Below the pieces are notes generated by a model that saw nothing but the letters and a program-made list of their open reading frames with translations, ran no database searches and was not told the DNA's origin. 64,000 nucleotides of DNA from Terfezia claveryi (lineage: Eukaryota > Ascomycota > Pezizomycetes > Pezizales > Pezizaceae): positions 310,001 to 374,000 of the forward strand of contig WHUX01000042.1 in NCBI GenBank assembly GCA_015179025.1, read 5' to 3'. This document shows, piece by piece, positions 2,261-58,300 of the stretch; position 1 is the first letter of the stretch; every line of letters begins with the position of its first letter. Position numbers and translations under genes: made by a program.

Positions 2261-3623
2261 CTACAGTGGCCACCTTGCCCCCATCCCCTCCTTTGCCCCC
2301 TCTAAACTCCGCCTACACCCTCCACATAACTCCTCAACCCCAACCCCCAACTCAGTTAACACCCCGACACTCAACTTTTTCACATCCCGATCTTCTTCCT
2401 CCCAAACATCTGCTTCGTCTATATCAATTGGAAACCCGCAGACCGCGCAGTTGGGCACGGATTGTTCCACCACAGCGGCTACCTCCGATGATGCAACTAG
2501 GTGAGTGGGAGGAGGGACACGCCCAATGGTTTTGACTACGTTGGCGACAATACTGGGGTATGTCTGCTCCATTTGTGAAAAGTATTTGTGCATGAGAGAG
2601 TCGATTGAGGTATCTTTTGCTGTAGAGGTCGGGATTAGGGTTTGTGGGGATGGTGTGGCAGAGGATGAAGAGGAGGAGGGAATATGGAAGAGTTGGAGGG
2701 AAGGAGTGAGGGAGAGGTAGGTGTGGAGTTCTTTTTTGAGGAGATCTCGAAGGGGGTAGATTGTTTGGAGGTTTCGGTGGGGGGAGAGGGATGGGGGAAG
2801 AGGGATGGGGCAGTCGGATGTAGACCAGGGAACGGAGTAGCCTCTTCCTTTGGCGGTTTCAGAGAGGGTTTTTTCAGCAAGGCGAGTGGTGCTGTGGGAG
2901 AAGAGGATTGCGGGGGACGAGTGTTGGATGGCGAGGCGGATGAAGAGGCGCGTGAGGAGGGTGGTGAGAATGTCTTGTTTGCTGGAGAGAGAGCTGAGGG
3001 AGGAGATTAGGGCTCGGAGCTTTTCGAGATTTGTGCCTTCAGCGGATGAAGTGGGGGTGTCCTGGGGTTGGCTGTAGGTGTAGATATCTTCTAATCGGAC
3101 GGACTCGACCGTAATCCCTGACCCCTCACCGCCAAAATGGGATTCGAGGCCCATAAATATTTCCTTCTTTCGTACACTCCCAGGGCCATCCCCACTAATC
3201 CCACTGTCGTCAACCCAGACCACCAATAGCTCATATCCAGTTCTTCCGACCCTTGTCCGCTGGGAGATCATGTGCTCCTTGAGGATGTGGAGTAAAGTCA
3301 GGGAGCTTACTCCGAATGAGAACGGAAGGAGGAGGAGTGGTGGTGGGGCATTGGTGGGGTTGTTGCGGACCCGGAAAGGGTCCATTCGCTTGATGGGCTT
3401 GGAGCGGGCATAGGAGAGGAAGCAAGTGCTGTGGAGGGGCAATGTTAGTGGCAGGCGGGGAAGGCAGCGGGGGAGGCAGACGGGGGTAGGGAAAGGGGGC
3501 CCGGGAAGGAATGGGTGGAGGACAGCACCTGCAGAGGGGGTCGTTTCGCCCAGTCACGGTGCCGGGGGAGCATTTACAGCGTGCACACGGGGGTACAGGT
3601 CCGGCGGGCTGGGGACCGGTCAT
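2261..3623 (-). CDS. CTU2: Cytoplasmic tRNA 2-thiolation protein 2 (Ctu2/Ncs2)
   Basis: The family acts with Ctu1/Ncs6 in the cytosol to thiolate U34 of tRNA Lys, Glu and Gln, using sulfur delivered by Urm1. There are two exons: 3529-3623 and 2261-3428, joined across a 100-bp GT-AG intron (3429-3528). The splice restores the N-terminal zinc motif: CARC in exon 1, and a second CxxC (CSTC) built across the junction, followed by KPIKRMDPFRVRNN. The PP-loop-like block LLPFSFGVSSLTLLHIL lies just downstream; the catalytic SGGxDS is degenerate, as is usual for Ctu2. The C-terminus keeps paired Cys motifs (CAVCGFP and LCGGC). Spliced length is about 420 aa, in the normal range. The start at 3623 is the only Met upstream of the first CxxC in this frame that I can see. 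The 5' end faces TSR4, so the two share the 3.6-4.4 kb intergenic region. Confidence 0.9.
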
Positions 3624-4390
3624 TTTTGGTTCTCTACGTTCACGAGCTCCGGGGGGGGATACTCAAGCATCAGTATGTTGCCACAGTAGCCACAGTAGAG
3701 CCACAGTAGCCACTAGTAAGGATAATAGCTTGGCACGTAAGTTCACAGCTATGGACGAACCAGACTAAGTTCACAGAATTCAAATGTAAGTGTGTATGCT
3801 CGCGGGCGGCATACCCTCTGTGCCGGTCGCGGGCAATTGATATAATTCCTCAATTTGGTAATTGTGAATCAAAGAAAACTCAAAAAACACCCCGGAGGCT
3901 CTCCTACCTTAATATTCCTTCAACCTTCAGAAACTCCATCCAAGCTAAGATCACACCTGCCTAGGAACTGCTGCACTATCCACCTTATTTGCACATTTGG
4001 CACATCCACACCCCGCAGCCTCCTTTTTTTCTTCCTTTTCTCCCCCATACTTCTGACATGGTACTTTTGCTCTCTTTCAGTCATCCTACCTAGAAAGAAA
4101 TACTACATTTGTTAAATAAAAGAATTCGCAGGGACTACGTATACTAAGTCTCAATGGACGACATACATTACCCTATTACGGAGTAAAGTAGCTGTAATTG
4201 AAATTTGCCGTAGAGTTACCCTGAGACTTCTCCAGACACCCCAAAAAAAAGTTTAGTACATCAGCAGTCTTAGTACCATTCACTAAAGCTACTTATTTTA
4301 ATAACTAGATATTCACTTCCTGACAGATAAGCAGCCGAAGGCCACTCTTGGATTCCAAACAACTCCAAAGCTTTAGCCTTCGTATGAATC
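3624..4390. promoter_or_regulatory. Divergent intergenic region CTU2 / TSR4
   Basis: This is the shared upstream region of two divergently read genes. It holds a short imperfect direct repeat of GCCACAGTA (three copies, 3679-3712) and otherwise AT-rich sequence. No convincing TATA box. Several start-stop ORFs of 80-90 codons here lack any family signature. Confidence 0.35.
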
Positions 4391-4790
4391 ATGTCAGGCA
4401 ACTACTCTGACTCCGAAGATGAAGACTACGGCGACCAATGTTACACTCGGCATTGCGGTGACCGAAGCAACCAGCGACAAGATCAGCCACCTCGGTGGTG
4501 AACCTGTACTTCCCTCCCCTTCCTTCCTCCTCCAACTTACCCCCCTTCTCTAACTTCGCCCGGTTGTTTTATCTTAGACCTGGGTAAAGCTCACTTCCCC
4601 CTCTGGCACCCGCCTGGCAAAATGCCTTTCTTGCAATTCCCTCATGAACCTCCTCCTCCAACTCGATGGCGAAGTCCCTGAATCCCCCCACCAGCGAATC
4701 TTTCACGTCTTCGCCTGCGCGCAGAAACAATGCCGACGGAAGCAGGGCGGGGTTAGAGCTATTCGGGGTCTTTGGATACGTAAAGCGGCT
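4391..4790 (+). pseudogene. TSR4: TSR4/PDCD2-like protein, N-terminal fragment cut off by a transposon
   Basis: Tsr4 (PDCD2 family) is a chaperone for ribosomal protein uS5 in yeast. The ATG at 4391 opens an acidic start (SDSEDEDYG). The family blocks follow in another frame: TNVTLGIAVTEATSDKISHLGGEP, then a 72-bp GT-AG intron (4506-4577), then TWVKLTSPSGTRLAKCLSCNSLM with a CxxC zinc motif, LLLQLDGEVPES, and FHVFACAQKQCRRKQGGVRAIRG. One frame change is needed near 4430. After about 4785 the similarity stops and pogo-like transposase sequence begins; the C-terminal PDCD2 domain is not found anywhere in the window. I read this as a broken gene. It could instead be a partial duplicate, with an intact copy elsewhere, since the yeast gene is essential. 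Confidence 0.75.
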
Positions 4791-4794
4791 TTAG

Positions 4795-5290
4795 CGACTT
4801 ATATCTATTTGCTGATGGAGTATCTCGCATTTAATCTAAGCTCATTTTTCATGGATCAAATGGTCCCAGTGCCAAAATCAAAAGTCGGGAGAGCAATCGA
4901 TATCATGGTGGTGTTACGGTTGAATTTAACAAGACAGCCTATAATAACGAAAAGCTCTTCCTACAGTTCATTGAGAAAGAGCTCATTCCGGCACTCAATC
5001 CTAGCAAATCCGAATCCACCTCAAGTCTGCTTGTTTTAGATGCTGCTGCCTTCCACCCTACCGATGATGTTCTAGCATGTCTAAGAGATGCAAAAATCAG
5101 TTGTGCCGGCCTAATTCAACCACTTGACACCGCTGTAAATAAACCATTTAAGGAATATTTACCTAATTTTACCGACCAGTATGTTGCAAAGCAAGAAAAG
5201 CAACAACCTTCCTTAATAACCAAGGGATGGGCATTAAGTGACAAGCGGATTATGACAACGCATGTTGTTTGAGATGCGTGGGTCCAATGT
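4795..5290 (+). pseudogene. Pogo-like DDE transposase fragment, inverted copy
   Basis: The plus strand, read with frame changes, contains blocks of a fungal pogo/Fot1-type DDE_1 transposase: ISANGVSRI, RYHGGVTVAFNKTAYNNEKL, FIEKELIPALNPSKS, LLVLDAAAFHPTDDVLACLRDA with the second catalytic Asp, and IQPLDTAVNKPFKEYL. About six residues of the usual PGGCT turn are missing. Nearly the same sequence lies on the minus strand at about 5340-5640, so the two form an inverted repeat. There is no single open frame, so it cannot be active. Confidence 0.75.
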
Positions 5291-6580
5291 GTTGACTTAG
5301 GCCGGTACAACCACCTGGAATTAGAGAAGGCATGATTTTTGCATCTCTTAGACATGCTAGAACATCATCGGTAGGGTGGAAGGCAGAAGCATCTAAAGCA
5401 AGCAGACCTGAGGTGGATTCGGATTTGCTAGGATGGAGTGCCGGAATGAGCTCTTTCTCAATGAACTGTAGGAAGAGCTTTTCGTTATTATATGCTGTCT
5501 TGTTAAATGCAACCGTGACACCACCATGATATCGATTGCTGTCCCGACTTTTGATTTGGTATTGACACCTTGATCCATGAAAAATGAGTTTAGGTTTAAT
5601 GCGAGATACCCCATTAGCAAATAGATATAGGATAAGTGTTGCTTGTCGTTTATCCCAACTACTTTGCTGGGTCTTAACAGAAATAGATTTATTTCCAATA
5701 AAATCGAAGGTTCATCCATCCAAGTATTCGAAGGAGATTGGTGTTTTATCTAGGTTAAGGATATTGTTTCGGGCGTAGCGTCCTCTATGGTAACAATCTG
5801 ATCCCGTTCAAGAGAGTTACGAGGCTGAGAGTTTCGGCGGTTAAATCGAAGCCACTCTTGAATAAGTTGACGATATTCTTCTGGAACTTTAGATGCTTTC
5901 CGAGTTATAGATAAAGAGCTAATACTCCATCTTCGTTGGAAGTTGCCAAACCAAGCAACACAAAGATTCGAGGTGCATTAGGATATAGCTCTGAGAACAG
6001 CTTCTTGGCCGGTCTTCGAAACCAACCTCGTCGTACCGGTCTACCAGCTTCACGCTCTTTAACAAAACGCTCAAATGAACTGTGGCCACAAACACAACCA
6101 TGATGCATTTGGTTGATGTCGAGAGCCAATTTTCTGATCCACAATCTGTACTCGATTTAGCCACCACTCCGCAATTGTTCTTTGGGGAATCTTAAACTAT
6201 TGACTAACTTCAGTTTGTGTAAGACAACGATATTCTATTCCATCATTCTCATCATCGACTTCCAAATTCTCATCACCATCCTGTGGAAGTCGATGATGTA
6301 TAAGAATCATTAAGACTTCTATCTTTTTCTCTCTTGAGTAACTGCGTTTTACTTTTTGAATAGGCTCCCAAATCTTATATACTCGATTTTCCAAACTCTT
6401 AGGCTTAGGTCCAGGTCGCTGTTTCGCTTTTGCTCGTGGCGTAGAAGGGTTCGACTTCCAAGTACCAGGTAGGTGCTGTAGGATATTGGCATCAGATACT
6501 GATATAGGCTGCAAAACTCGTCTGTCTTGGTGGTGCCCTAGTCTGGTTGGCACGTGGTGGACCCCAAACATAATATACAA
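5285..6580 (-). pseudogene. Pogo-like transposase pseudogene
   Basis: Reading the minus strand downward from 6580 there is an N-terminal basic region (RPGPKPKSLENRVYK), then a helix-turn-helix-like stretch (KRSYSREKKIEVL, LTQTEVSQ), then the DDE domain (ISANGVSRIKPKLIFHG, HGGVTVAFNKTAYNNEKL, LLALDASAFHPTDDVLACL), ending near 5285 with LIPGGCTGLSQ. Several stops and frame changes interrupt it. Gene order is normal for Tc1/mariner-superfamily pogo elements. It abuts the inverted fragment to its left, so the left end is rearranged; terminal repeats were not resolved. Confidence 0.7.
6539..6558 (+). repeat. Terminal-motif copy TAGTCTGGTTGGCAC
   Basis: One of several dispersed copies of TAGTCTGGTTGGCAC, always beginning at a TA. 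It lies inside the 5' part of the minus-strand transposase frame. No opposite end was found nearby. Confidence 0.5.
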
Positions 6581-7763: not shown

Positions 7764-9050
7764 ATGACGACCTCAGATAACATGCTTATGTTGGCGGCAA
7801 CCCTGACAGTGCGGTACATCAATGCACTTACAATGGATTTATCCGATGACGATAATGATGGGGACAATAATGATACACCCCAATACCGTCCTCCGATCAG
7901 CTATGAGAAGAAGAACTGGTCATTGATGGATTCAGGATGGGGTGATACAGAGTGCCTGGAATATCTGCGTTTCTCAAAGAGAGAGATTGCAGAACTTATC
8001 AGGGAATTGAGGCTTGCAGAATGGGTTGATTTGCCAGTCAGGATGACTGGCGAGTATGCGAGGTGTGCAGAGCAAGGGCTTTGTATGTTGCTTTATCGAC
8101 TTGCATCACCGGGGCGCCTGAAGGATATGATGCAAATATTTGGCGTATCTCGGAGTCAAATCTCTTGTGTGGTGACTGATCTTGCGGACTTTCTATATAA
8201 GAAGTATCACAGGAAGCTGATATGGGATCATGGACGACTGTCACTACAACAATTACATAAGTATGTGAATGCTATTGATGAGACTGTGGGGGAGTCGATG
8301 GAGACTTGGGGATTTATTGATGGGACTGTTCGTCCAATTGCAAGACCTACAATAGATCAACAGCGATACTATTCAGGTCATAAGGGCTATCACGGGATTA
8401 AGTTCCAAAGTATTGTTACTCCAGATGGCCTCATTAGCAGCCTATATGGACCAGAATTCAGCCCAAAAGGTGATTGGAAGCTATGGCAGGAATCAGGCTT
8501 AGAAGACATATTACGGCGGGTATTTGGTGGCGGCAATCCAGCGAATCCAGCGAATCCAGCGAATCCAGCGAATCCAGCGAATCCAGCGAATCCAGCGAAT
8601 CCAGCGAATCCAGCGAATCCAGCGAATCCAGCGAACTTGAATCCAGCGGACCCAGCGAACTTGAATTCAGCGGACCCAGCGGACCCAGCGGACCCAGCGG
8701 ACCCAGCGGACCCAGCGGACCCAGCGGACCCAGCGGACCCAGCGGACCGAGGCAATCCTAGACATGAGCGGGTATATCTCTATGGTGACCCAGCATATGT
8801 ACCTGCCTTTGGAATTAGAGGCCCATATCGAGCTGGAAGAGGTATTTTGAGTCCTGAGCAGGAAGCTTTCAATGTTGTCATGTCTAAATATCGCATTGTT
8901 GTGGAATGGGGATTTGCAAATGTGCTGAATCAATTTACATCCGGCGAATGGAATAACCATCGACATAACCTTCTTGCGAACATCCGCTCCTTGATGGCTA
9001 GTGATCTCTTTGAAGAGTATAGTAATATACTGCCAAAACGTGGTCTCTAG
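7764..9050 (+). CDS. Harbinger (HARBI1-like, DDE_Tnp_4) transposase with expanded NPA/DPA repeat
   Basis: An uninterrupted 428-codon frame. The acidic N-terminus (about residues 25-40) precedes a helical region with a helix-turn-helix-like stretch (IFGVSRSQISCVVTDLADFL, about 130-150). The catalytic triad can be placed: first Asp in WGFIDGTVRPIARP (about 180), second in YLYGDPAY (about 345), Glu in VVEWGFANV (about 383). The block YYSGHKGYHGIKFQSIVTPDG is typical of the superfamily. Between the first and second Asp, residues about 258-328 are a pure tripeptide repeat (NPA, then DPA). Family members normally have only a short loop here, so an expanded minisatellite has been inserted in frame. 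Whether the enzyme tolerates it is unknown. Confidence 0.9.
   Translation: MTTSDNMLMLAATLTVRYINALTMDLSDDDNDGDNNDTPQYRPPISYEKKNWSLMDSGWGDTECLEYLRFSKREIAELIRELRLAEWVDLPVRMTGEYARCAEQGLCMLLYRLASPGRLKDMMQIFGVSRSQISCVVTDLADFLYKKYHRKLIWDHGRLSLQQLHKYVNAIDETVGESMETWGFIDGTVRPIARPTIDQQRYYSGHKGYHGIKFQSIVTPDGLISSLYGPEFSPKGDWKLWQESGLEDILRRVFGGGNPANPANPANPANPANPANPANPANPANPANPANLNPADPANLNSADPADPADPADPADPADPADPADPADRGNPRHERVYLYGDPAYVPAFGIRGPYRAGRGILSPEQEAFNVVMSKYRIVVEWGFANVLNQFTSGEWNNHRHNLLANIRSLMASDLFEEYSNILPKRGL
8535..8748 (+). repeat. 9-bp coding minisatellite (AATCCAGCG / GACCCAGCG)
   Basis: About ten or eleven tandem AATCCAGCG units are followed by two AACTTGAAT-containing spacer units and then about nine GACCCAGCG units. 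In the transposase frame they encode NPA and DPA tripeptides. Several other frames on both strands also stay open (SES, SAG and RWV tripeptide runs), which creates artefactual ORFs. The unit change from AAT to GAC marks two separate expansions. Confidence 0.95.
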
Positions 9051-20690: not shown

Positions 20691-21090
20691 AAAGGCTCCT
20701 ATACACAAAATAAACATTGTACCTCTTTGCCTTCAGCGCCCAAGAGGAAGTCGGCTAATAACTAAAACAGCAATAACTATACAACGGACCTGAAAAGTAA
20801 ATAAATAATCGAAGGGTGATAGCGTATAGATTGACTAACCTTTAGTTAAATAAATAAAGATTCATAGAGAAGCGTAGAATCTTTGAGAGATAACTTATCC
20901 GACTGGAAATTTAAAAAAAAAGAAAAAAAAAAAAAAGAAGAAGCAATTATGTAGTCCACTGCAATAACTCTCTATGGATCAGCCTACGAAACGAACATAG
21001 ATAAACAAGCCCCTACCAATATCCTAAACTAGAAACCCATGACTACTATTAGCGAGAGTCCAAAATCCCGATGTTCTTAGCAGGGAACTC
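20691..21090. other. AT-rich spacer
   Basis: No gene seen. There is a poly-A-rich stretch around 20911-20942. The sequence looks decayed, similar to the palindrome that follows. Confidence 0.4.
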
Positions 21091-21286
21091 GTACTATCAC
21101 TAACTGGGTAATGATCGACTACATGTAATGATCGATATTGTGACCCTTACTTCACCCGACTACGTTCAGCGACTATACAACGAGATCAAGGAATAACCAT
21201 GCCCATAGCTTAATTACAGTCGCTGAACTTGATTTTTGCATCGACAGCCCGATCAGAGTTGCCCTGACCTTACTATAGTACTTACC

Positions 21287-22523
21287 ACCTCAGCAGCATC
21301 TACAACCCCCTCTCTACTGTAAATCCCTTCTACCGCAACTACCGTCACCCGTATATGGCTGTTCATAGCATGAATAGACGCTTCATGAGTGCTCTCCTTA
21401 ACCTACATGAGATTGAAGCAACAATTTAACTCTAATACATATACTGCATGCCTACAAAAATCAAAAATATTAACTTCCTGCAATTAGCTTCTTCAGCATA
21501 GTATTTTCTATATTGTAAGCACTCTAATCAAGCTATTCTTATACAATAACTTTCTTGAGGCTGCTTAATACCTCTTCTGATATTTTCCGATACTTGAATA
21601 GGCTCTAACAGGCTCTATAATCCTCAGCTCTTTAGCAAACTTCTGTAATACCCCCCTGGCCTTCAGTAGCCTTAGTATCTGCAATTCAACCTTTCATATA
21701 GCAGGACTAGTATTAGTCAAGAGCTTAATGTATTTTTAAAAGAGTAAGCAATCGTAGTTTACTAGTATTTATGGATATCCTTACTTTGAACCCCTTCTCT
21801 TCTCTTAAAATCCTGCTAAATACCCTTCCTATTCACCTACTAACTAAGTTCAAGTAAACAGATTAAAGGAGCTTTACCATACCCTGAGATGCAGGAGCCT
21901 TGCCACTATACTTTGAGGTAGCTCTACCATACTTCACTATGCTCAAAATCCTTCACTAACTACTTATATATTAAGGCTTGGAGGAGATTTTGATGGAGAG
22001 GGGGCGGTTGAAATAGAGAAATTCCACTGGCACTAGTAAACCGCAATTATAGAGCTTGCTAAGGATACATCAGACTCTCAATTAAGTGTATTTGACTATA
22101 AGGAAGCCTGAAGTATAGAGGTTGATATGGCTGAAGAGGGGGTAAGGGATTATAATCAACGTTGGCCAAGGAATTGAGGGCTGTAGAGCCTGTTAGAGCC
22201 TATTCAAATATCAGAAATATGAGAAGAGGTATTAAGCAGCCTCAAGAATATTATTATATGAGGATAGCTTGATTAAGTCTCTTACAAATTAATATAGTAA
22301 ATACTATACCAAATAAGCTAATTGTTAGAAGTTTAATATTTTTGATATTCATAGTACATACATTACATACATAAGAGTTAAATTGTTGCTTCAATCTTAT
22401 GTAGGTTTAAGAGAGTACATATGAAGTATCTATTCAAACTATCAATAGCTATATATGGAGGAAGGTAGTTGAGATGGAGAGAATTTACAGTAGAGAGGGG
22501 ATTGTAGGTGCTGCTGACTAGTA
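21287..22523. mobile_element. Nested 1.2-kb foldback element
   Basis: Arms of about 350-370 bp (21287-21640 and 22150-22523) are inverted copies: the left end reads CTCAGCAGCATCTACAAC and the right end, reversed, GTCAGCAGCACCTACAAT. The differences are mostly transitions. The 510-bp centre has no gene. It splits the left arm of the larger palindrome; comparing with the intact right arm places the junction between TAGTACTTAC and CTATTAA. A clean target duplication is not resolved. Confidence 0.75.
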
Positions 22524-22723
22524 CCTATTAATGAACAGGAATGGGCTAACGAACACCCCTGTAGCCAAGTGTCTCCAGCCACAATTTATGATATAGTAGG
22601 AGCTATGATGAGAATCTTGTTCTGGCTGAATACATAACTATGAAAACAACTACGCTTTATAAGACAGTTACCCTCATATCTTGGCAAAATTTACTCTATG
22701 CCAAATAACATACCTTCTAATAT

Positions 22724-23366
22724 TGTAAAGTAAGGCGGCGTGCTTCATAACCAACTCTCTACTGCCAGGCGACAGTACTAGAGTTTTACCATAGCAAACT
22801 ATAGGTGCACGGAACCTATAGCTTCTATTTAAGTATATCTTGCTGGCATATATTCTATTGTCGCTCTAGTTGTAAAAGGTAGGCCCGACCGGCCTATAAC
22901 TTGTTATTGGAACATAGAGGGAGATGGGCCCAAACATGCCCAGAATATAATAGCTCAATACTTTATTATTGGTAGATATCTACTACTGTGTTTCTGTCTC
23001 TATCTCTAGCTTGAACTGACTTGAACGCTCCTCCAACTGAGGGGAATTCAGGGGACTATATACTGTCCAGAGTGGGGCAGTGCTGGGGCAGTGCTGGGGC
23101 AGTGCGCCATTATCTGACCCATTACATGATTTGAAATCAACATGATAGAAACTGCTAGAAACTACTAGGAAATAGAACTACAAGTATCGCGTGACCCTTC
23201 CAATGAGTCACGCTCATTACTATAATGAAATACATGAGTTACTATACCTTTATTATCATCTGCCGGCCGACGCTAGCGGCCTGATAATATCCTATTCCAC
23301 TAGGTTAAAAGTTGGTATGTAACGGGAGTTACATTTCATTGGGAAATGGAATATGACTTCCTTACA
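22724..23366. repeat. Solo LTR (643 bp) with 5-bp TSD AATAT
   Basis: Begins TGTAAAGTAAGG and ends CTTCCTTACA, so it has TG..CA ends and a short terminal inversion. It is flanked by AATAT on both sides (22719-22723 and 23367-23371). The empty site is visible in the opposite arm of the palindrome, where CCTTCTAATATGACCTCC runs without interruption near 24745-24762. No internal coding region is left, so it is a solo LTR formed by LTR-LTR recombination. It contains three tandem copies of TGGGGCAGTGC at 23073-23105. Confidence 0.85.
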
Positions 23367-25292
23367 AATATGACCTCCCCGATGACTCCCCCTTTCCCTC
23401 TCTACCCTACCCTTTGGCTGAGCAACCTACTAACAAGTGAATAGATACTATGGAGAGCTTAACAAAAGGTCTATATCTATATTAAAATAGCTCTTGTAGC
23501 AGAAGCCTAATATATAGTGCCAGTATATGGTCGAAATGATAGGCACCTATCTCTGAAAAATAAGTAATTCTAAGAATTCTTATTTAATTAACAAAATCCT
23601 CTCCACTTATGCTCCACTGGAACTACCTCCCTCCGACGCCCCTTCCTGGTATCTTCAACCACCATGGTGAAGTCTCTAATAGAACTAGAAGTACTGATAC
23701 CTCCCCTCTTGGGTTTCAATAGTCCCTTCGGTGGGAGGGGTATCCCAGCCTCCTCAAAGGGCATACAACCATAGATATTAATACAAGCTAATTTCCATAT
23801 ATGAGGACTAACTAGGCACTGTGAGGGCTTCTTGGTTAGGTGTTCAGGCATCTGCTGGGAGAGCTTCGGGGTCCGATATTAGGTTGGAAATTTCAGTTAA
23901 TTTCTAAGTTAAAATCTGAGAGAGCAGTAGGGTTAGATAGTGAACTGTGATATCTGGTTGATGGTAGATGAGTCCCAATGGTAGAGACTATATTAGATAC
24001 TAGGTTCGATATGTATTCAATGCTGGCTGGGTTCAATGGTGAGTTCAACACTAGGTTTAATACTAAGTTCATCTCTATAAGGGGTTGTGCTAATCAGACT
24101 AGTTTAATACTTAGAACTCTAGTTTAGATACTTAGATTGAATACCAGGTTGGATATTAGGTTTGGCTTTGGGTTGGTTACTAAGTTGGATAGTAGGTTCA
24201 AGTTAGAAGCCAGAAAAGCAATTTAGGAAGATGCTAAGACAATCTCTAGGTTGAATACTGATTTAGGTACTAGTAAAGCTTCTAAGTTAGAGGTGAGTGC
24301 AGCAAGGTTTTACTTTGGATTAACTATAAACATATGGTTGCTTTGAGGAACTGAAACACCCCTTAAGGAAGCTAGGATACCCCCCTACTGAAGGGACTAT
24401 TGAAGCCCAAGAGGGGGAGTATCAGTGCTTCTAGTTCTATTGGAGACCTTACCATAGTGGTTAAGGATGCCAGAAAGGTGGCTTTGGAAGGAGGTAGTTT
24501 GAGTGGGGTATAAGTGGGAATGATTTTGTTGGCAACGAAGTTGCCAATTTCAATTAGTACGAAGTTGTTATTTATAGATGTACCTCTCGTTCTAACCATA
24601 CCCTAGTACCATATATTAGGCTTCTGCTATAACAGCTATTTTAACATAAATATAGACCTTTAGTTAAGCTCTCTATAGTATCTATTTACTTGTTAGCAAG
24701 TTGCTCGGCCTAAGAGTAGGGTAGAAGGGGAAGAGGGGAGTTATCAGGGAGGTCATATTAGAAGGTATATTATTTGGCATAGAGTAAATTTTGCCAAGAT
24801 GTGAGGGCAACCACCTTGTAGAGCGTAGTTGTTTCTATAGTTACGTATCAAGCCGTAACAAGCTTCTCATCATAGCTCCTGCTATATCATAAATTGTGGC
24901 TGGAGACACTTGGCTACAGGGGTGTTCGTTAGCCCATCCCTGTTCGTTAATAGGCGCTAGAGGGTAAGTACTATAGCAAGCTCAGGACAACTCTGATCGG
25001 GCTGTCGATGCAAAATTCAGATTCAGCGACTGTAATTAAGCTATGGGCATGGTTATTCCTTGATCTCGTTGCATAGTCGCTGAACGTAGTCGGGTAAAGA
25101 AAGGGTCACGATATCGATCATTACTATGTAGTTGATCATTACCCAGTTAGTGATAGTAACTCTGGTGTTGCCAAGCTGCGACTCACTCTGAGGCTCATGG
25201 AAGCTCTGAGAAATGTTTCACTTGAGTTTTTACAACTTTTCCAGATCACCTCAACTGCCCGGCTTTTATTGGTACGAAACGACGACCCTACC

Positions 25293-44463: not shown

Positions 44464-45822
44464 CATGGGGCAGGGCGGGGCTTCCGGGGGTAACGCTGGT
44501 AGAACAGGGTGACCAAGTCCTATGCGTTTTCCAGATCTTCGGTGGGTTGCCAGGTCGACTCTTCATCCCCTAACCACTTGACCTTATACTGAACTCGCCC
44601 ATAGCGCTTCTTGGAATCCAGTACCTCCTCAACCTCCCACTCCTCTTCACCTACAATCACTACGGGAGGGGGTGGGGGGTGCCTTTGCCCGGGGAGGGGA
44701 TCGTTGGCGGCTGGCTCGATCTCCGAGATGTGAACGACCGTGTGGTATTTGATGTCTTTAGGGAACTTCAACCGGTAGGTGTAAGTGCCCACATTCCCCA
44801 ATATCTCATACGGCCCCAGGAACTTATGATCTAACTTATGAGAAGGTCGTTCTGTCCGGAAGTGCCGGTTGGAGAGCTACACCTTATCTCCTGGCTGATA
44901 CCTGGGGGCTGGCAACTGTGATCCGTTGGCATACTCCACTTGCCTGGCTTGAGCATATACTAGTTCGGCTCTTAAGGTAGAGTGCAACTCAGCAATCTCC
45001 GTGGCAAACTCCTTAGCTGGGGTGTTCTCCCTAGCCTTGTGCAGAGGTGCTAGGGAGTCCACGAAATGAGGGTGCCAGCCATAATTGGCCAGAAACAGGG
45101 AGGTTTTTAGAGTCTCTGAGAAATGGTTGTTAGCGGCGAACTCACAGGTTGCCAGCAGCGAAACCCAGTTGTTTTGCTAGTAATTGACGTATGCTCTCAG
45201 GTACTGCTCCATGATTGCATTTATTCGCTCGGACTGACCATCTGTTTGAGGGTGATATGCCGTGGAGAGGTGTACGTTGATTCCTAGAAGCTCGCAGAAT
45301 ACCTTCCAGAAGTCCGAGATGAATTGGGGGCCGCGGTCTGAGATGACTGACTTGGGGAGACCATGGTAGTGGAATACATGGTTGAGGTAGAGGCCGGTGA
45401 GGTCCCGGGCCGAACAGGTATTATAGCAAGGTATAACATACCTCATTTTGGTCAATCGGTCTACTACCATAAGAATAGTATTAAACCCCGAATCCTCCGG
45501 CAACCCAGTCACAAAGTCCATGGTTAGGTGTTGCCAAGGTTGATCTGAGATCTCCAGGGGCTTTAGGGTCCCATAAGGAGCATGACGGGTAGGCTTAGCA
45601 CGCTTGCAAACATGGCAGTTCCATATGTACCGCTCCACCTCCTTCCGTTGGTCAAACCACATATATTGCCTAGCTAGCAGCTTCAACGTTTTAGCTACCT
45701 CAGGATGACCCGCAGCCAGGGTTTCATGGTGTTCCTTGATCAGCTGCATCCACAGCTCCCCTTCCGGTATATAGAGCCGATCTAGGTGGTATAGGAGGCC
45801 GTCCTGAGTGGTGCACTCGGCT
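44464..45822 (-). pseudogene. Gypsy integrase with C-terminal chromodomain
   Basis: Minus-strand order: DVAECTTQDGLLYHLDRLYIPEGEL, H2C2 zinc site (HHETLAAGHPEVAKTLKLL ... CHVCKRAKP), DDE core (LTMDFVTGLPEDSG, VVDRLTKMRYVIPC, VISDRGPQFISDFWKVF, STAYHPQTDGQSERINAIMEQYLRAYVNY), then GPYEILGNVGTYTYRLKFP, then a chromodomain EEEWEVEEVLDSKKRYGRVQYKVKWLGDEESTWQPTEDLENA. Interrupted by TAG at 45177 (expected Gln), near 44880 (expected Trp) and at 44520 (expected Gln). The chromodomain places it among the chromoviruses, whose chromodomain directs integration to marked chromatin. Confidence 0.9.
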
Positions 45823-46512
45823 ACATCAGAAACGATTGCAGTTTGCCTTTGCGGCCCCTGACGCCCGCGATGTTCTAAAGACAAACTAACAGTTAATGGC
45901 GCAGCGCGAAAGACAGTTGTCGCTCGGGCGCTGCTCCCTCGCAGCGCGTGCCCCACAGCCAGTTGTTAACGCAATCCATGCCATGACGCTGTACTCTAGG
46001 GCTTTGCACCCTAGGGTTCAGCGTTGTGGAACAGCGCCCTGGCGCTCTATCTTGTGTGTCCCCGCCCTCAAGCCGTATACTGTTTCTGCCCCCAGGTGCC
46101 AATCCATGGTCATGCAACGTCCAGGTGCTACAAGAGCACAGTATGCCTCAGTAACGCAGGTGTGCACCCTGGTACAACTACCTGACAGACAATATTTCCA
46201 CTCTACTTAGCGTACGTGGAGAATAATGGTAATAGTAGCCAGGCAAATGCAGCCAGGCAGAGAGGGGCGGTCAGGCAAAGGCAACCAGGTATAAGCAATA
46301 CATTGCATGCACTAGGTGAACTTGAGCTTCTATATACACTGATGAGCCATATTTGATTTCCACCGAACCATTCTATCATAGATCCCACTAGGACTCTGTC
46401 CTGCGCATATGCCTCCCAAAATCTAGCTGTTCCCAGACCTCAGCAGTCTCCAAAGTAGTAACCGCCCTCGCTGATGTAGTTATCCACTGCCATGAGTAAC
46501 TCCTAGTAGTAG

Positions 46513-47332
46513 AGCAATTAGCTAGGCAGTCCCACAAAGTCCACGGATTTGCTGGCGAGTCCACGTACCTAGCTATATCTGTGCATATTGATAGGGGATA
46601 TCTCAGGAATGCACTTGTGGAGTCCTAAGAGCAATTAGCAATGCCCTCACATAGAGTCCGCTGGTTTTCTGGCGAGTTCACTTACCAAGTTATGTCTGTA
46701 ATTGATAGGGGATACCTCGGGAGGGCACTTGTGGAGTCCTAAGAGCAATTAGCAATGCCTCTACATAGAGTCCGCTAGTTTTCTAGCGAGTTCACATACC
46801 TAGCTATGTCTATGAATATTGATAGGGGATATCTCAGCGGAGTCCTAAGAGAAATTAGCAATGCCCTCACATGGAGTACGCAGGTTTTCTAGCGAGTTCA
46901 CGTACCTAGCTATACCTGTGTCTGCGCACATAGATTGGTGATATCTCGTAACTGCACTTTGGGCATCCTAAGAGCAATTAGCAATGCCTTCACATAGAGT
47001 CCGCTGCTTTCTGGCGAGTTCACGTACCTAGCCATGCCTGTGTCTTCGCACATAGATTGGGGATATCTCGCAACTGCACTTTGGGTGTCCTAAGAGCAAT
47101 TAGCAATGCCTTCACATAGAGTCCGCTGGTTTCTGGTGAGTTCATTACCTAGCTATGCCTGTCTTTGCGCACATTGATTGGGGATATCTCGCAACCGCAC
47201 TTTGGGCGTCCTAAGAGCAATTAGCTAGGCCTTTACATAGAGTCCGCGGGTTGTCTGGCGAGTTCACGCACCTGGCTATGTCTACGCATATAGATGGGGG
47301 ATATCTCGAGAGTGCACTGGGGGAGTCCTAAC
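46513..47332. repeat. About 117-bp satellite array, 7 units (left arm)
   Basis: Units begin GAGCAATTAGCAATGCC and contain AGAGTCCGCTGG, GCGAGTTCACGTACCTAGC and GGGGATATCTC. Starts near 46513, 46630, 46742, 46851, 46971, 47094 and 47215. Unit length varies (about 108-123 bp). Confidence 0.9.
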
Positions 47333-47639
47333 CTCAGCGCTGGCTGCTTGACCTTCCGCCGACTACTGGCTGCCTACGTTATGTGTCATACCTGTGAAAA
47401 GTAGGGGTGCACGTGCTCTCGTGTTCTGTTGGTTCGCGCAGCCCTGGAAATATGTGTAGGCTGACGTGGCCGGGAAATATGTGTTGATTGGTCGGAAGGC
47501 AGATTTGTGCATGATAGTGTGACAGATCAGCACATGCATGTTTCAGGCTACATATGCTCGCCAGCCGTGGGTTTACCGAAGTGGGTAATAGGAGCACTGA
47601 TGGCGGGCTTGTTCATATGGACCTGTGCATGTGAGCAAC

Positions 47640-48037
47640 TCATACTTTTGGAGACTTATATATATATGCGAGAAACTTATGCTTTTGGAGATATATATAT
47701 ATATATATATATGCGAGAAACTCATGCTTTTGGAGGCTTATATATATATATACGAGAATCTCGTGCTTTGGAGACTTATATATATATATGCGCGAATCTC
47801 GTGCTTTGGAGACTTATATATATATGCGAGAAACTCATGCTTTTGGAGACTTATATATATATGCGAGAAACTCATGCTTTTGGAGACTTATATATATATG
47901 CGAGAAACTCATGCTTTTAGAGACTTATATATATATGCAAGAAACTCATGCTTTTGGAGACTTATATATATATATGCGAGAAACTCATGCTTTTGGAGAT
48001 ATATATATATATATAATATGCGAGACACTCGTGCTTT

Positions 48038-48072
<35 letters not shown>

Positions 48073-48420
48073 AGAAACTCATGCTTTTGGAGGCTTATAT
48101 ATATATATGCGAGAATCTCGTGCTTTGGAAACTTATATATATATATGCGCGAATCTCGTGCTTTAGAGACTTATATATATATGCGAGAAACTCATGCTTT
48201 TGGAGACTTATATATATATATATGCGAGAAACTCATGCTTTTGAGGCTTATTAGTATATATGCGAGAAACTCATGCTTTTGGAGGCTTATATATATATAT
48301 GCGAGAAACTCGTCCTTTTGGAGACATATAGAGAAATGTATGCATTCACGGGCATATATATATATGTGTGAGAAACTCGTGGTTTTGGAGACATAGAGAA
48401 ATGCATGCATTCGCAGGCAA
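47640..48420. repeat. (TA)n plus 38-bp minisatellite array (left arm)
   Basis: The unit is a TATATATA run, then TGCGAGAAACTCATGC, then TTTTGGAGACT, repeated about 18-20 times with variants (CTCGTGCTTTGG). Variable (TA)n length shifts the frame between units, so long ORFs in several frames translate the same repeat. Confidence 0.92.
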
Positions 48421-48494
48421 GATAAATATATATGCAGAGGCGAGAAACTTATGCATTAGCAGCCTCTAGATCTACATGGAATCAATCTATAAGC

Positions 48495-48705
48495 CTCAAA
48501 AGCACAAGATTCTTGCATATATACTAATAAGCCTCAAAAGTATGAGTTTCTTGCATATATATATATATAAGTCTCCAAAAGCATGAGTTTCTCGCATATA
48601 TATATAAGTCTCCAAAGCACGAGATTCGTGCATATATATATATAAGTCTCCAAAGCACGAGATTCTCGCATATATATATATAAGCCTCCAAAAGCATGAG
48701 TTTCT

Positions 48706-48740
<35 letters not shown>

Positions 48741-49120
48741 AAAGCACCAGTGTCTTGCATATATATATATATATCTCCAAAAGCATGAGTTTCTCGCATA
48801 TATATATATAAGTCTCCAAAAGCATGAGTTTCTCGCATATATATATAAGTCTCCAAAAGCATGAGTTTCTCGCATATATATATAAGTCTCCAAAAGCATG
48901 AGTTTTTTGTATATATATATAAGTCTCCAAAGCACGAGATTCGCGCATATATATATATAAGTCTCCAAAGCACGAGATTCTCGTATATATATATATAAGC
49001 CTCCAAAAGCATGAGTTTCTCGCATATATATATATATATATATATATCTCCTAAAGCATGAGTTTCTTGCATATATATATAAGTCTCCAAAAGCATGAGT
49101 TGCTTGCATGCACAGGTCCA
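48495..49120. repeat. (TA)n plus 38-bp minisatellite array (right arm, inverted)
   Basis: The reverse complement of the left array (AAAAGCATGAGTTTCTCGCA followed by TA runs and AGTCTCC), about 15 units. The inner edge at 48522 pairs with 48230-48260. Confidence 0.92.
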
Positions 49121-49419
49121 TATGAACAAACCCGCCATCAGTGCTCCTATTACCCACTTCGGTAAACCCACGGCTGGCGGGCATATGTAGCCTGAAACAT
49201 GCATGTGCTGATCTGTCACACCAGCGTGCACAAATCTGCCTTCCGACCAATCAACACATATTTCCCAGCCACGTTAGCCGACACATATTTCCAGGACTGC
49301 GCGAACCAACAGAACACGAGAGCACGTGCACCCCCACTTTTCATAGGTATGACACATAACACAGGCAGCCAGTAGTCGGCAGAAGGTCAAGCAGCTAGCT
49401 CTGAGGTTCGGACTCCCCC

Positions 49420-50360
49420 AGTACACTCTCGAGATATCCCCCATCTATATGCGCAGACATAGCCAGGTGCGTGAACTCGCCAGACAACCCGCGGACTCCA
49501 TGTGAAGGCCTAGCTAATTGCTCTTAGGATGCCCAAAGTGCGGTTGCGAGATATCCCCAATCGATATGCGCAGAGACAGGCATAGCTAGGTAATAAACTT
49601 GCCAGAAACCAGCGGACTCTATGTGAAGGCATTGCTAATTGCTCTTAAGATGCCCAAAGTGCAGTTACGAGATATCCCCAATCTATATGCGAGGACACAG
49701 GCATAGCTAGATATGTGAACTCACCAGAAAGCAGCGGACTTTATGTGAAGGCATTGCTAATTGCTCTTAGGACGCCCAAAGTGCAGTTGCGAGATATCCC
49801 CAATCTATGTGCAAAGACACAGGTATAGCTAGGTACGTGAACTCGCCAAAAACCAGCGGACTCTATGTGAATGCATTGCTAATTGCTCTTAGGATGCCCA
49901 AAGTGCAGTTGCGAGATATCCCCAATCTATGTGCACAGATACAGGCATAGCTAGGTACGTGAACTCGCCAGAAACCAGCGGACTTTATGTGAAGGCATTG
50001 CTAATTGCGCTTAGGACGCCCAAAGTACAGTTGCGAGATATCCCCCAGCTATATGGGCAGACACAGGCATAGCCAGGTATGTGAACTCACCAGAAAACCA
50101 GCGGACTCCATGTAAGGGCGTTGCTAATTTCTCTTAGGACTCCGCTGAGATATCCCCTATCAATATTCACAAATATAGCTAGGTATGTGAACTCACTAGA
50201 AAGCCGGCAGACTCTATGTGGAGGCATTGCTAATTGCTCTTAGGACTCTGCAAGTGCACTCCCGAGATATCCCCTATCAATATGCACAAACATAGCTAGG
50301 TACGTGGACTCGCCAGCAAATCCGTAGACTTCGTGGGACTGCCTAGCTAATTGCTCTACT
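49420..50360. repeat. About 117-bp satellite array, 8 units (right arm, inverted)
   Basis: The reverse complement of the left-arm array; the unit-end marker CTAATTGCTCTTAGGA recurs near 49517, 49638, 49759, 49883, 50006, 50127, 50235 and 50350. One unit more than the left arm, so copy number has changed independently after the palindrome formed. Confidence 0.9.
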
Positions 50361-51008
50361 ACTAGGGGTTGCTCGTGGCAGTGGATAACTACATCAGTGA
50401 GGGCGGTTACTACTTTAGAGACTGCTGAGGTTTGGGAAGGGCTGGATTGTGGGAGGCATATGTGCAGGACAGAGTTCTAGTGGGATCTATGATGGCATGG
50501 TTCGGTGGAAGTTCAAATATGGCTCATCAGTGTATATCGAAGCTCAAGTTCACCCAGTACATGCAATGTATTGCTTATACCTGGCTGCCTTTGCCTGACT
50601 GCCCCTCTCTACCTGGCTGCGTTTGCCTGGCTGCTATTACCATTATTCTCCGTGTGCACTAAGTAGAGTGGACATGTTGCCTGTCAGGTTGTTGAGCTAG
50701 GGCGCACACCTGCGTTACAGAGGCATACTGCGGTCCTATAGCACCTGGACGTTGGATGACTATGGATTGTCGCCTAGGGGCAGAAACAGTATACGGCTTG
50801 CAGGCGCGGATGTACAAGATAGGGTGCTAGGGCGCTGTTGCATAATACTGAACCGTAGGTCGCCAACCTTCTGAGTACAATGTCAGGACGTGGATTACAT
50901 TAACAGGTGGCCGTTACGGCGCATGGGGCGACCAGGCATCCAAGCAGTTGGTATAGTCCGTCAGGAGGCCTAGAGGGGCGTTGAGGTGTGGAAAAATCTT
51001 TCGTGATG

Positions 51009-52658
51009 TAGGGAAATCTTGGTATGATGGCGCTGTCCAGACTCCACTGCGGCGATTATATCCTTAACCAGGTCATCCTCCGCATATGCCCATCGTATCT
51101 GCAGAAGGAGATCTGCTCCGGGGTTCGCTTCAGCTTTAGCATCAGCCTCAGCATCAGCATCAGTATCAGCATCAGCATCAGCATCAGCCATAGTAAGGCT
51201 ATTGGCTGCTAGGTCGAGATTTTCAGGTTTCAGTACCACCTGATTTTGGTACTTCAGCCTTTCATCCCCACCCTTAGGGAGATCTCCTGATCTCTGGGTT
51301 AACGCATCAGGCTTGCCACCAGCTTTTCCGGGTCGGTACTTGATCTTAAAGTTGAACCAAGAGAGGAATTCCAACCACCTAGCCTGCCGTCGATTGAGCA
51401 GCTTGGTAGTTGTAAAATACTCAACGTTTTTGTGATCAGATAATACTTCGATAATCCCCTTGGCTGACTCCAGATACGGCCTCCACTCCTCGAACACCCT
51501 CACAATGGCCATCAGCTCCTTGTCATAGATCTCGTAGTTGCACTTAGCCGAGGAGTGCTTTTTCGAGAAGTAGGCCACTGGGTGGAGGATGCCGTTGACA
51601 TACTGGGAGAGGATTTCCGCGGAGACATAATCGGAGGCATCGGTTTCGACGACACATTCCTGGTCAGGGTCGAAATGTGCTAGGATCGATACTGAGCAGA
51701 AGGCTTCCTTGAGGTTCTGGAAGGCAGATTGGGCTTCTGGATTCCAGTCGAAGCGCCGGTCTTTTTTGGTCAGGGCGGTGAGGGGGGCTACGATCTTCGA
51801 ATACCCTAGAATGAACCGTTGGTAGAAGTTAGCAAATCCCAGGAAGGCTTGGACATCCTTGAGATTTGCTGGGATTTGCCATTCCTGGATAGCGGTAACC
51901 TTGGCAGGGTCTATCCTGAGGCTCTCCGTGGTGATGATCAGTCCCAGATACTTGACCTCCTGCATATGAAACTCGCATTTCTCGGGCTTGAGGTACAATC
52001 CGGCTTGCTCCAGTTTTTCCAACACCTGCTGGACATGAATCTTGTGTTCTGCTAGAGTATCCGAATAAATCAAGATATCGTCAAGGTAAGCCGTGCAGAA
52101 CACATCCAAGAAGTCTCGCAGGGTGTCATTAATAAAGTGTTGGAAAGAGGCCGAGGCGTTGGTTAAGCCGAAGGGCATGACATTGTACTCGAAATGGCCA
52201 TATTGTGTCTGGAAGGCGGTTTTCCACTCCTCCCCCTCAACAATCCATACCAGGTTGTATGCCCCTCTGAAATCCAATTTGGTGAACCATTTCGCCTTGG
52301 AAAGCCTAGCTAATGTCTCCTGGATTAGAGGCAAGGGATACCTGTTCTTTACCGTTATCTCGTTCAGGCTACGATAATCAACATATAACTAGAGGGAGCC
52401 ATCCGATTTCTTGACGAACAGCACAGGGGCACCCGCTAGGGAAGAGCTGTGCTGAATGAAGCTCTTATTGAGATTCTCCTCCAAGTACTTCTTCAGAGCC
52501 TCCAGTTCCAGCCGAGACATTCCATAGAGCGGGCCGTATGGGGGCGTCTTTCCTTCCACCAGGAGGATTGTATGATCGTAAGGTCGATGTGGTGCCAGCT
52601 TCTCTGCGGCTTTCTCAGAGAACAAGTCAATGAATTCGTGGTATTCACCTGGCACCAT
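51009..52658 (-). pseudogene. Gypsy reverse transcriptase / RNase H
   Basis: Starts in [31 protein letters not shown] and reads [37 protein letters not shown], a TAG where Gln is expected (52389), then [50 protein letters not shown], the catalytic [34 protein letters not shown], and RNase [60 protein letters not shown] short Asp-Ala repeat run (from GCATCA repeats, 51123-51188) follows. The frame is cut at 51008 by the palindromic insertion. Confidence 0.9.
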
Positions 52659-55356: not shown

Positions 55357-58300
55357 CTATTTCCCCTTTAGGCTGGAGTTCCAATGACAGAGGTTTAGGT
55401 ACAACAACTGGCAAATCACTATAGGGAACAACAACACAGGAAAACAACAACAAGAACAAGAACAACAACAAGAATGCAAAGTCATGACCTCAGTCGACTG
55501 GGCAAGGCTTCCTGAGGTATCACTAGTGAAACAGAGTGACCAAATCCTGTGCATTCTCTAAGTCCTCTATAGGTTGCTAGGTAGCCTCCTTGTCCTCTAA
55601 TCATTTGACCTTGTACTGAACTTACCTATAGCGCTTCCTGAAGTCCAGTGCTTCCTTAATCTCCCACTTCTCTTCACCTGCAATTACTATAGGAGGAGGT
55701 GGGGGGTGCTTTTGCCCTAGAAGGGGATCATCGGCGGCTGACTCAATCTCCGAGATATGAACGACCAGATGGTGCTTAATTTTCCTGAGAAACCCTAGAT
55801 GGTAAGCATGAGTGCCCACAGCCGCTAACACCTCATAGGGGCCTAGGAACTTATGATCCAGCTTACGGAAGGGCCGTTCTATCTGGAAGTGTCTACTAGA
55901 AAGCCACACCTTATCTCTAGGCTGGTATCTTAGGGCTAGCAAACATAATCTATTGGCATATTCTACCTACTTGGCTTGGGCATATCCTAGCTCAGCCTTT
56001 AGGGTACAGTTTGTTCAGCGATTCTAGCTATGAATTCCTTAGCCAGAGGATGGGCTTTCTGTGGAGGTGCTAAGGTATTCACGAATCGGGAGTGCCAACT
56101 GTAATTAGCTAGGAAGGGAGAGGTTTTCGAGGACTCTGAGAACTAGTTGTTGGCAATGAATTCACAGGTTGCTAGCAATGAAACCCCATTGTCCTGCTAG
56201 TAATTAACAAAAGCCCTCAAATATTACTCTATAGTGGCATTCATTCTCTCTAATTGGCTATCCATCTGGGAGTAGTAAGCTATTGACAGATGAACTTTGA
56301 TCTCTAGAAGTTTGCAGAAGGCTTGCCAGAATTCTAAGGTAAACTAGGGGCCATGGTCAGACATGATTAATTTAGGGAGGCTATAGTACTAGAATACATT
56401 ATTGAGGTAGAGGTTAGCTAACTCCAGAGTGGAGCAGGTATTTCGGCAAGGTATAACATGCCTCATCTTCATCAACCGGTCTACCACCATCAGGATGGTA
56501 TTGAACCCTACATCTTCTGGCAATCCCATTACGAAGTCTATGGTCAGGTGTAGCCAGGGTCGATCCGGGATATCTAGAGGTTTCAGGGTCCCATATGGGG
56601 TGTGGTGGACAGGCTTAGAATGTTTGCAAACTTGGTAATTCTATACATACTATTCCACATCTTTCCACTGGTCAATCTATGTATATTCCCTAGCTAGCAG
56701 CTCTAACATTTTAGCCACCCCAGAGTGACCTGCAATTAGGCTGTTGTGGTGTTCCTTGATCAATTGCAGGTACAGTTCTCCTTCCAGTATATAAAGCTGT
56801 TCGAGGTAGTAGAGGATGCCCTCCTAGATAGTACACTTAGCTAGGGAAATCTTGGGGTAGTGGCACTGGCCAAAATCCACTGCGGCGATAATGTCTTTAG
56901 CCAGTGGGTTATCCACATATGCCCTTTTTACCTATTATCAGAGATCACATCTAGCATCTGCATTGGCCTCAACATCTACGATCTCAGCTTCAGTCTCAGC
57001 TTCAGCCAGAACATTGGTGGCCAGGTCAAGATTTTCCAGCTTCAGTACCACTTGGTTCTAATATTTTAGCCTTTTATCCCCTCCCTTAGGGAGATCTCCT
57101 GATCTCCTAGTCAGTGTGTTTGGTTTCCCACTAGCCTTTTCTAGCTGGTACTTAATTTTGAAATTGAACTAAGATAGGAATTCTAACTACCTAGCATGCC
57201 GGCAATTCAGCAGCTTGGTAGTTGTGCAGTATTCCAGGTTCTTGTAGTTGGAAAGGACCTCGATAACCCCCTTCGCTGACTCTAGGTAGGGCCTTCATTT
57301 TTCAAAAGCCCGCACAATGGCTATTAATTCTTTATCATAGATCTCATAAATATATTTCACTAGGGAGTGCTTTTTTGAAAAGTATGCCACTGAGTGGAGG
57401 ATACTATTATCATCATTCTGGGACAAGATTCTTGCAGAGACATAGTCAGAGGCATTGGTTTCGACGACACACTCCTGTTAGGGGTTGAAATGGGCCAGGA
57501 TCGGTGCTGAGTAGAAGGCTTCCTTGAGGTTCTGGAAGGCCCTTTTCCTCAAGTATGAGCCAGCTTCTACCTTCGTTTTTGTTAAAGCTATTAGAGATGC
57601 TGCGATCCTTAAGTATCCCAGGATAAACCAGTGGTAGATGTTGGTAAATCCTAGGAAGGCTTGCATATCCTTCAAATTGGCCAGGGTTTCCCACTCCTGG
57701 ATTATGGCAACTTTGGTAGAGTCCATCCTGATGCCTTCAGTGGTAATAATCAACCCCAGATACTTAACCTCCTACATATGGAACTTGCACTTTTCTAGCT
57801 TCAGGTATAACCTAGCCTATTCCAGCTTTTCCAGCACTTGTCAGATGTGGATCTTGTATTCTGCTAGGGTATTCAAGTATATAAGGATATCATCCAGGTA
57901 AGCAGTGCAGAACACATCCAAGAAATCCCACAAGGTGTCATTAATAAAGTGCTGGAAGGAGGCTGGAGTGTTAGTTAGGCTGAAGGGCATTATATTGTAT
58001 TCGAAATAACTATATTGTATCTGGAAGGCAGTTTTCTACTCCTCTTCCTTGGTGATCTATACCAGGTTGTACGCCCCCCTCAGATCCAATTTGGTGAACT
58101 ACTTTGCTTTAGAGAGTCTAGCTAATGTCTTCTGGATCAGAGGTAGGGGGTACCTGTTTTTGACCATTATCTCATTCAGGCCCCGATAATCAATACACAA
58201 CTAGAGAGAGCTATCTGATTTCTTTACGAAGAGTACTGGAGCGCCCGCTGGGGAGGAGCTATGGCGAATGAAGCTCTTATTGAGGTTTTTCTCCAAGTAT

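Follow-up and report, generated by a model that had tools for sequence, protein, structure and literature searches.

A gene-less palindromic element with satellite arrays in Terfezia claveryi as a probable non-autonomous relative of PlavakaB-type transposons

The FB elements of Drosophila are palindromes with tandem arrays in their arms; they are related to Mutator and produce 9-bp target duplications. The target duplication of Galileo is 7 bp, and that of Tc1/mariner elements is the 2-bp sequence TA. Families of the PlavakaB group have 2- or 3-bp target duplications and CATCA..TGATG termini, as stated in PMC12730594. We analyzed a stretch of 64,000 bp from the genome of Terfezia claveryi (C357:310001-374000, hereafter the window), in which a palindrome of about 5.2 kb with tandem arrays in each arm (45824-51008) interrupts a Gypsy pol gene. 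The genome searched comprised 72.6 Mb in 794 contigs. The host is Pezizaceae-like: a CTU2-like protein encoded in the window shares 90% identity with one of Terfezia claveryi over 74% of its length. With a probability of about 0.9, a cut-and-paste DNA transposon of the PlavakaB type gave rise to this non-autonomous, foldback-like element, which is moved in trans. It was placed with Plavaka because its termini, 2-bp duplications, and coding relatives agree, CATCA..TGATG being the termini of the B group.

Counts of scored genome matches to the element ends are lower bounds. With the left 697 bp as a query, at least 34 of the 40 scored matches (197 candidates) started at base 1 or 2; the remaining six started at bases 119–151, five at right arms and one in the cut copy C209. 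With the right 449 bp, at least 38 of 41 matches extended to base 448–449. The left 18-bp terminus occurred 48 times in the genome with up to two mismatches (once for the reversed control pattern), and the right 19-bp terminus occurred 67 times (control, once). Eighteen full copies were in hand (17 fetched and the window copy), and at least 34 left ends exist. Dissection covered 17 copies on 16 contigs, the interrupted copy C745out being left out. The order U-array-J-array-core-array-J-array-U, where U is the outer unique part and J the junction unique part of an arm, was present in all 17. Copy length was 4.2–5.8 kb in 13 of the 18; the other five were longer and contained further insertions, and on C745 one element was nested within another. 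The number of 117/122-bp array units varied from 6 to 13 on the left and from 6 to 10 on the right over the 17 copies. Among the best 100 of 259 matches to this unit, 98 were on contigs with known element ends and two on C91. The shared break points of the ends and the common architecture identify the palindromic satellite element as a transposon family rather than an assembly artefact.

An exact 2-bp duplication flanked 15 of the 18 copies (the chance of at least 15 at 1/16 is 5.9e-16), in line with the 2- or 3-bp duplications of PlavakaB; the three non-matching pairs, TG/TA twice and TA/TG once, were each one transition off. Copies C187a and C187b have common flanks, and therefore 14 of 17 independent sites were matched. 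Eight kinds of dinucleotide were found at these 14 sites: AA and TT three times each, TA and TC twice each, and TG, AT, CT, and CA once each. The termini were CATCA..TGATG, some copies being one base off (e.g., TATCA or TGATA). The Plavaka domain PF18759 was not encoded in the element, which lacks a gene; the transposase was found in coding relatives, the ends of which are homologous.

Coding elements at C223:320890 and C784:30123 likewise begin with the left terminus, either exactly or with one mismatch, and their left ends were homologous to the satellite elements over about 126–128 bp; homology between satellite and coding elements at the right end covered 95–103 bp. Of the 67 right termini, 37 were located at satellite-type arms, 16 others had a transposase-like match, and 14 had neither. 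In the 16 cases, the match lay on the same strand and ended 1.18–1.48 kb inward; control placements (inward on the opposite strand, outward on the same, and outward on the opposite strand) gave 0, 0, and 0 cases, all among the 150 transposase matches listed. One of the 16, C143, contained a frame with PF18759 (E 3.8e-15) upstream of a frame of 602 amino acids (aa); 15 of 34 database relatives of the latter frame carry PF18759, and the named transposase relatives belong to Tirmania nivea, Terfezia claveryi, and Kalaharituber pfeilii. Two elements of 9.93 kb, 99.97% identical, begin with CATCAGGAACGA and end with TCCTGATG, with CATCA..TGATG termini and duplications AA and TA; in the one scanned, PF18759 was identified in two frames (E 2.8e-22 and 1.3e-14). 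The Plavaka identity of the family is based on PF18759 in C143 and the 9.93-kb element, not on the transposase fragment of C784, for which nothing was found in Pfam or NCBIfam. Other tested frames of the coding relatives had no Pfam match above the cutoff. Subterminal tandem repeats were present in coding elements too, for instance with 30-bp units in C784 and with 111-bp units in C143, close to its right end.

The coding Plavaka-like elements (L031, L033, L035) also shared minus-strand frames near the left end, antiparallel to the transposase. These perhaps represent a second gene; they had no Pfam match where tested.

Most likely, the Plavaka transposase of the larger relatives moves the gene-less element in trans. 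The element has lost all genes and keeps both distinct ends that the transposase would recognise (131 bp on the left and about 95 bp on the right); the enzyme supplied by coding relatives would cut at CATCA..TGATG and insert with a 2-bp duplication, the termini and duplications themselves being observed. Several facts weigh against this assignment. Fourteen right termini were neither satellite-type nor near any listed transposase match. No PF18759 match was obtained for the 241-aa fragment of C784, for the frame of 602 aa in C143, or for that of 549 aa in the 9.93-kb element; the matches are in frames upstream. The coding elements with clean duplications form a sister subfamily, the transposase of which is 68% identical to the C784 fragment. 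The coding C784 and C223 had no matching duplication (AA/TT and TT/TA, respectively), so that, of the coding subfamily with the most similar ends, only old or rearranged copies are seen. No transposition was observed, and given these unmatched flanks, movement in trans is what we infer.

The preliminary description, made from the window sequence alone, had assumed a TA target like that of Tc1/mariner and possibly a new family. A non-autonomous foldback family specific for TA, whether Tc1/mariner-like or otherwise unrelated, would agree with the TA on both flanks of the window copy; however, TA was present in only 2 of the 14 independent matched sites, which means that the TA of the window copy is not a target rule, and the long end homology with Plavaka-coding elements also contradicts such a family, which we consider very improbable. 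The termini, the 2-bp duplication, and the coding relatives place the element with Plavaka instead of a new family; further copies with the same termini, for which a search had been suggested, were found, with any 2 bp and not only TA being duplicated. A search for a larger relative with a transposase had been suggested as well; elements with the same right terminus carry a Plavaka-like transposase inside it. The same description had named an assembly artefact as a possible refutation. A lone palindrome could indeed result from a false inverted duplication, but the same palindrome recurred in all dissected copies, with different unit numbers and with arms diverged to 77–95% identity by position; we consider a false duplication highly improbable.

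In the window copy, the element ends are CATCAGAAACGATT and CATCACGAAAGATT, and TA adjoins either end (45822..45823 and 51009..51010). A pattern search of the window for these ends with three mismatches gave 6 matches versus 6.06 expected, i.e., no excess over chance; the ends are regarded as real because other genome copies share them, not because of the pattern alone. The left terminus with the left-specific subterminal region (45824..45954, plus strand) starts with CATCAGAAACGATTGCAG and is homologous to the left ends of coding Plavaka-like elements (E 4.7e-20 and 1.7e-19); the right-specific subterminal region with the right terminus (50915..51008, plus strand) ends with GGAAAAATCTTTCGTGATG and is homologous to their right ends. 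These outer 131 and 94 bp are side-specific and non-palindromic save for about 14 bp, and the palindrome begins inward of them. The left arm (plus strand) consists of U (45955..46500), the 117/122-bp tandem array of 7 units (46501..47330), J (47331..47640), and a 37–39-bp array with (TA)n (47629..48330). The right arm (minus strand) consists of a 37–39-bp array with (TA)n (48488..49109), J (49105..49412), the 117/122-bp array of 8 units (49413..50371), and U (50372..50914). An asymmetric central spacer (48339..48487, plus strand) serves to read the orientation of the core. The inverted copies span 45955-48281 and 48497-50914, with the innermost blocks 215 nt apart; the longest ungapped blocks between the arms are 827 nt (94%), 444 nt (91%), 402 nt (85%), and 342 nt (90%).

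No gene was found inside the window element: its five open reading frames (ORFs) of at least 150 aa are repeat read-through, and the sole match in a Pfam scan of its ORFs was below the cutoff (21.7 versus 25 bits, 15 residues). The host Gypsy pol gene, on the minus strand, is cut into an integrase part (H2C2, rve; 45177..45821, ORF 45177-45956) and a part encoding reverse transcriptase and RNase H (51011..52334, ORF 50970-52334). The empty site with a single TA is kept at 56842..56843 in a diverged Gypsy copy of the window. The arms, both kinds of arrays, the short spacer, the lack of a visible gene, the split pol gene, and its empty site are present as the preliminary description had them. 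Its further view of a non-autonomous foldback-type element with changing array unit numbers is likewise supported, and many copies were found at different sites, with arrays of varying length in their arms.

Arm statistics and the tree were based on 16 copies, C187b (with the flanks of C187a) and C745out being left out. In U, 31 of 32 arms had their nearest sequence on the same side of a different copy. In J, side identity was lost: the same side was nearest in 8 of 32 arms and the other arm of the same copy in 9 of 32, and the J arms of C784, C286, and C177 were 99–100% identical within a copy. Side-diagnostic columns, counted from outside to inside, numbered 16, 6, 5, 0, and 1 in five windows of U and 0, 0, and 0 in J, and left–right identity within a copy climbed from 77% to 94–95% in the same direction. 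The within-copy excess over random pairing was reached in 0 of 10000 permutations for the inner two fifths of U and for J and in 34 of 10000 for the middle two fifths of U; it was absent from the outermost 112 columns of U (6139 of 10000). The asymmetric central probe was forward in 13 of 16 copies (C187b counted) and inverted in C286, C152, and C745in, the last with a 94% match inverted and a weaker forward match at 69% identity. C50 had no readable probe and was scored as unknown on the tree of outer parts, on which the core orientation changed at least twice (16 copies; several branches are weak).

This pattern points to exchange between the arms within copies. Crossovers between the arms of a copy would flip the core, and gene conversion would keep the inner arms alike, with the outer parts remaining side-specific as the inner arms are homogenised; the numbers of array units, the variation of which is observed, may change through unequal exchange or slippage. 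A different explanation accepts the transposon and ascribes the similarity gradient to constraint or history, the outer parts having always been different or being kept as side-specific binding sites. The 16 fixed side differences and the missing within-copy excess in the outermost 112 columns are what is expected of parts that differed from the start, but the inner excess, the nearly identical J arms, and the inverted cores are left unexplained, and we consider constraint or history alone unlikely. We lean, with some reserve, towards the view that the element is a self-palindromising mobile satellite, a derivative of the CMCT clade in which array-bearing arms would repeatedly exchange and flip the core, the ends staying fixed for the transposase and the interior evolving in concert in each copy.

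Of 715 deviations from the side majority in U (16 copies), 478 were C>T or G>A. The changes affected 13% of CpG, 6% of CpA, and about 2% of CpC and CpT sites. This substitution pattern looks like methylation-driven decay with some repeat-induced point mutation.

The simplest origin of the palindrome, and a probable one, is that the right subterminal region was copied in inverted orientation, since in two of the three copies tested the outer right arm is similar to this region of a coding relative. The right arms of the satellite copies C784 and C177 matched that region of the coding C223 over 233 and 214 bp (E 1.3e-10 and 2.6e-11), and the match runs about 120–140 bp past the side-specific end. 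Against this origin, the evidence comes from C784 and C177 only, and their left arms also show a weak similarity (E about 0.009) to the left side of the 9.93-kb element. The window copy lacks the extended match: it matches the coding C784, C223, and C143 by its last 95–103 bases only, with a weak match to the 9.93-kb element over 148 bases (E 0.007).

Two long copies were considered as larger autonomous versions and rejected. In the 13.5-kb copy C512 (C512:281329-294866; L011, L012), the extra 8.66 kb is a separate transposon with ends GTTCTGGTCCGTTC/GAACGGACCAGAAC, inserted into the 38-bp array at an ATAT stretch. It has an integrase-core frame (rve, E 6.6e-8) with 26 other genome matches of 82–98% identity over at least 93 residues (among the best 150 of 986 candidates); this integrase was dropped as a partner of the satellite element after the genome-wide search. 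In the 25.5-kb copy C50, the additional DNA contains frames that, judged by eye, are retrotransposon-like. C209 was an ordinary copy cut at about base 120 by retrotransposon-like DNA.

The core of the C286 copy (L016, element positions about 3234–5853) contains an insertion with its own inverted 40-bp arrays, the inverted ends of which are similar (CAGACTCTT / AAGAGTCTG); this is a second palindromic element with arrays, of a different kind. Further features were found in the window: a palindromic element of about 4 kb (about 21090–25160) that has long inverted ends and several inverted arms nested in one another; an inverted-repeat element of about 0.75 kb (about 4840–5595) with arms of 225 nt, 96% complementary, and inverted ends that reach further; and a DDE_Tnp_4 transposase frame of 428 aa (7764–9050) with about 24 in-frame 9-bp repeats that directly follow the first half of the domain, the part that was matched.

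With the Plavaka placement, a palindromic gene-less repeat is assigned to a transposase, which suggests that foldback architecture extends beyond the P and Mutator superfamilies. If the element is a self-palindromising satellite, the foldback design would have evolved independently once more, in another transposase superfamily and in fungi, and transposition would offer a route by which satellite DNA is seeded across the genome. With dozens of natural replicates in a single genome, arm exchange can be measured against the distance from the palindrome centre, which bears on the persistence and spread of long palindromes and satellite arrays. The combination of CATCA..TGATG and 2-bp duplications may serve as a diagnostic for annotating such repeats in Pezizomycete genomes.

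In published work on Plavaka, on foldbacks with tandem repeats, and on CACTA/EnSpm foldbacks, surveyed mostly from listings, no such Plavaka element was found. The foldback with arrays in its arms is itself a known design, present in Galileo, Tetris, and FB. The comparison with FB, made in the preliminary description, is valid for this design only (long inverted repeats with tandem arrays); the 9-bp duplication is replaced by 2 bp, and the coding relatives are Plavaka-like rather than Mutator-type, no search for Mutator transposases having been made. As in Tc1/mariner, the duplication is of 2 bp and is TA in the window copy, but the target here is not limited to TA. The non-coding copies of Galileo (Drosophila, P superfamily; PMC3573991) consist of a pair of long inverted repeats, with tandem repeats inside some of them; the two sides likewise differ in unit number there, and recombination between the repeats is discussed, whereas the transposase is of the P superfamily and the ends are different. 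Tetris of Drosophila virilis (PMC4079207) is apparently non-autonomous and foldback-like, with about 220-bp tandem repeats in its inverted repeats and a link to satellite DNA; it differs in being an insect element, the repeats of which also form long free arrays; in the genome searched here, such arrays may exist outside the matches listed. With PlavakaB of the CMCT clade, as described in PMC12730594, the element shares the CATCA..TGATG termini, 2-bp duplications, and coding Plavaka relatives in the genome; unlike the coding families, it has no gene and a palindromic interior of arrays, and it was assigned by its ends and relatives. What appears to be new here is that the inner arms seem to be homogenised within copies and the outermost parts do not, with the core inverted in 3 of 16 copies through at least two events.

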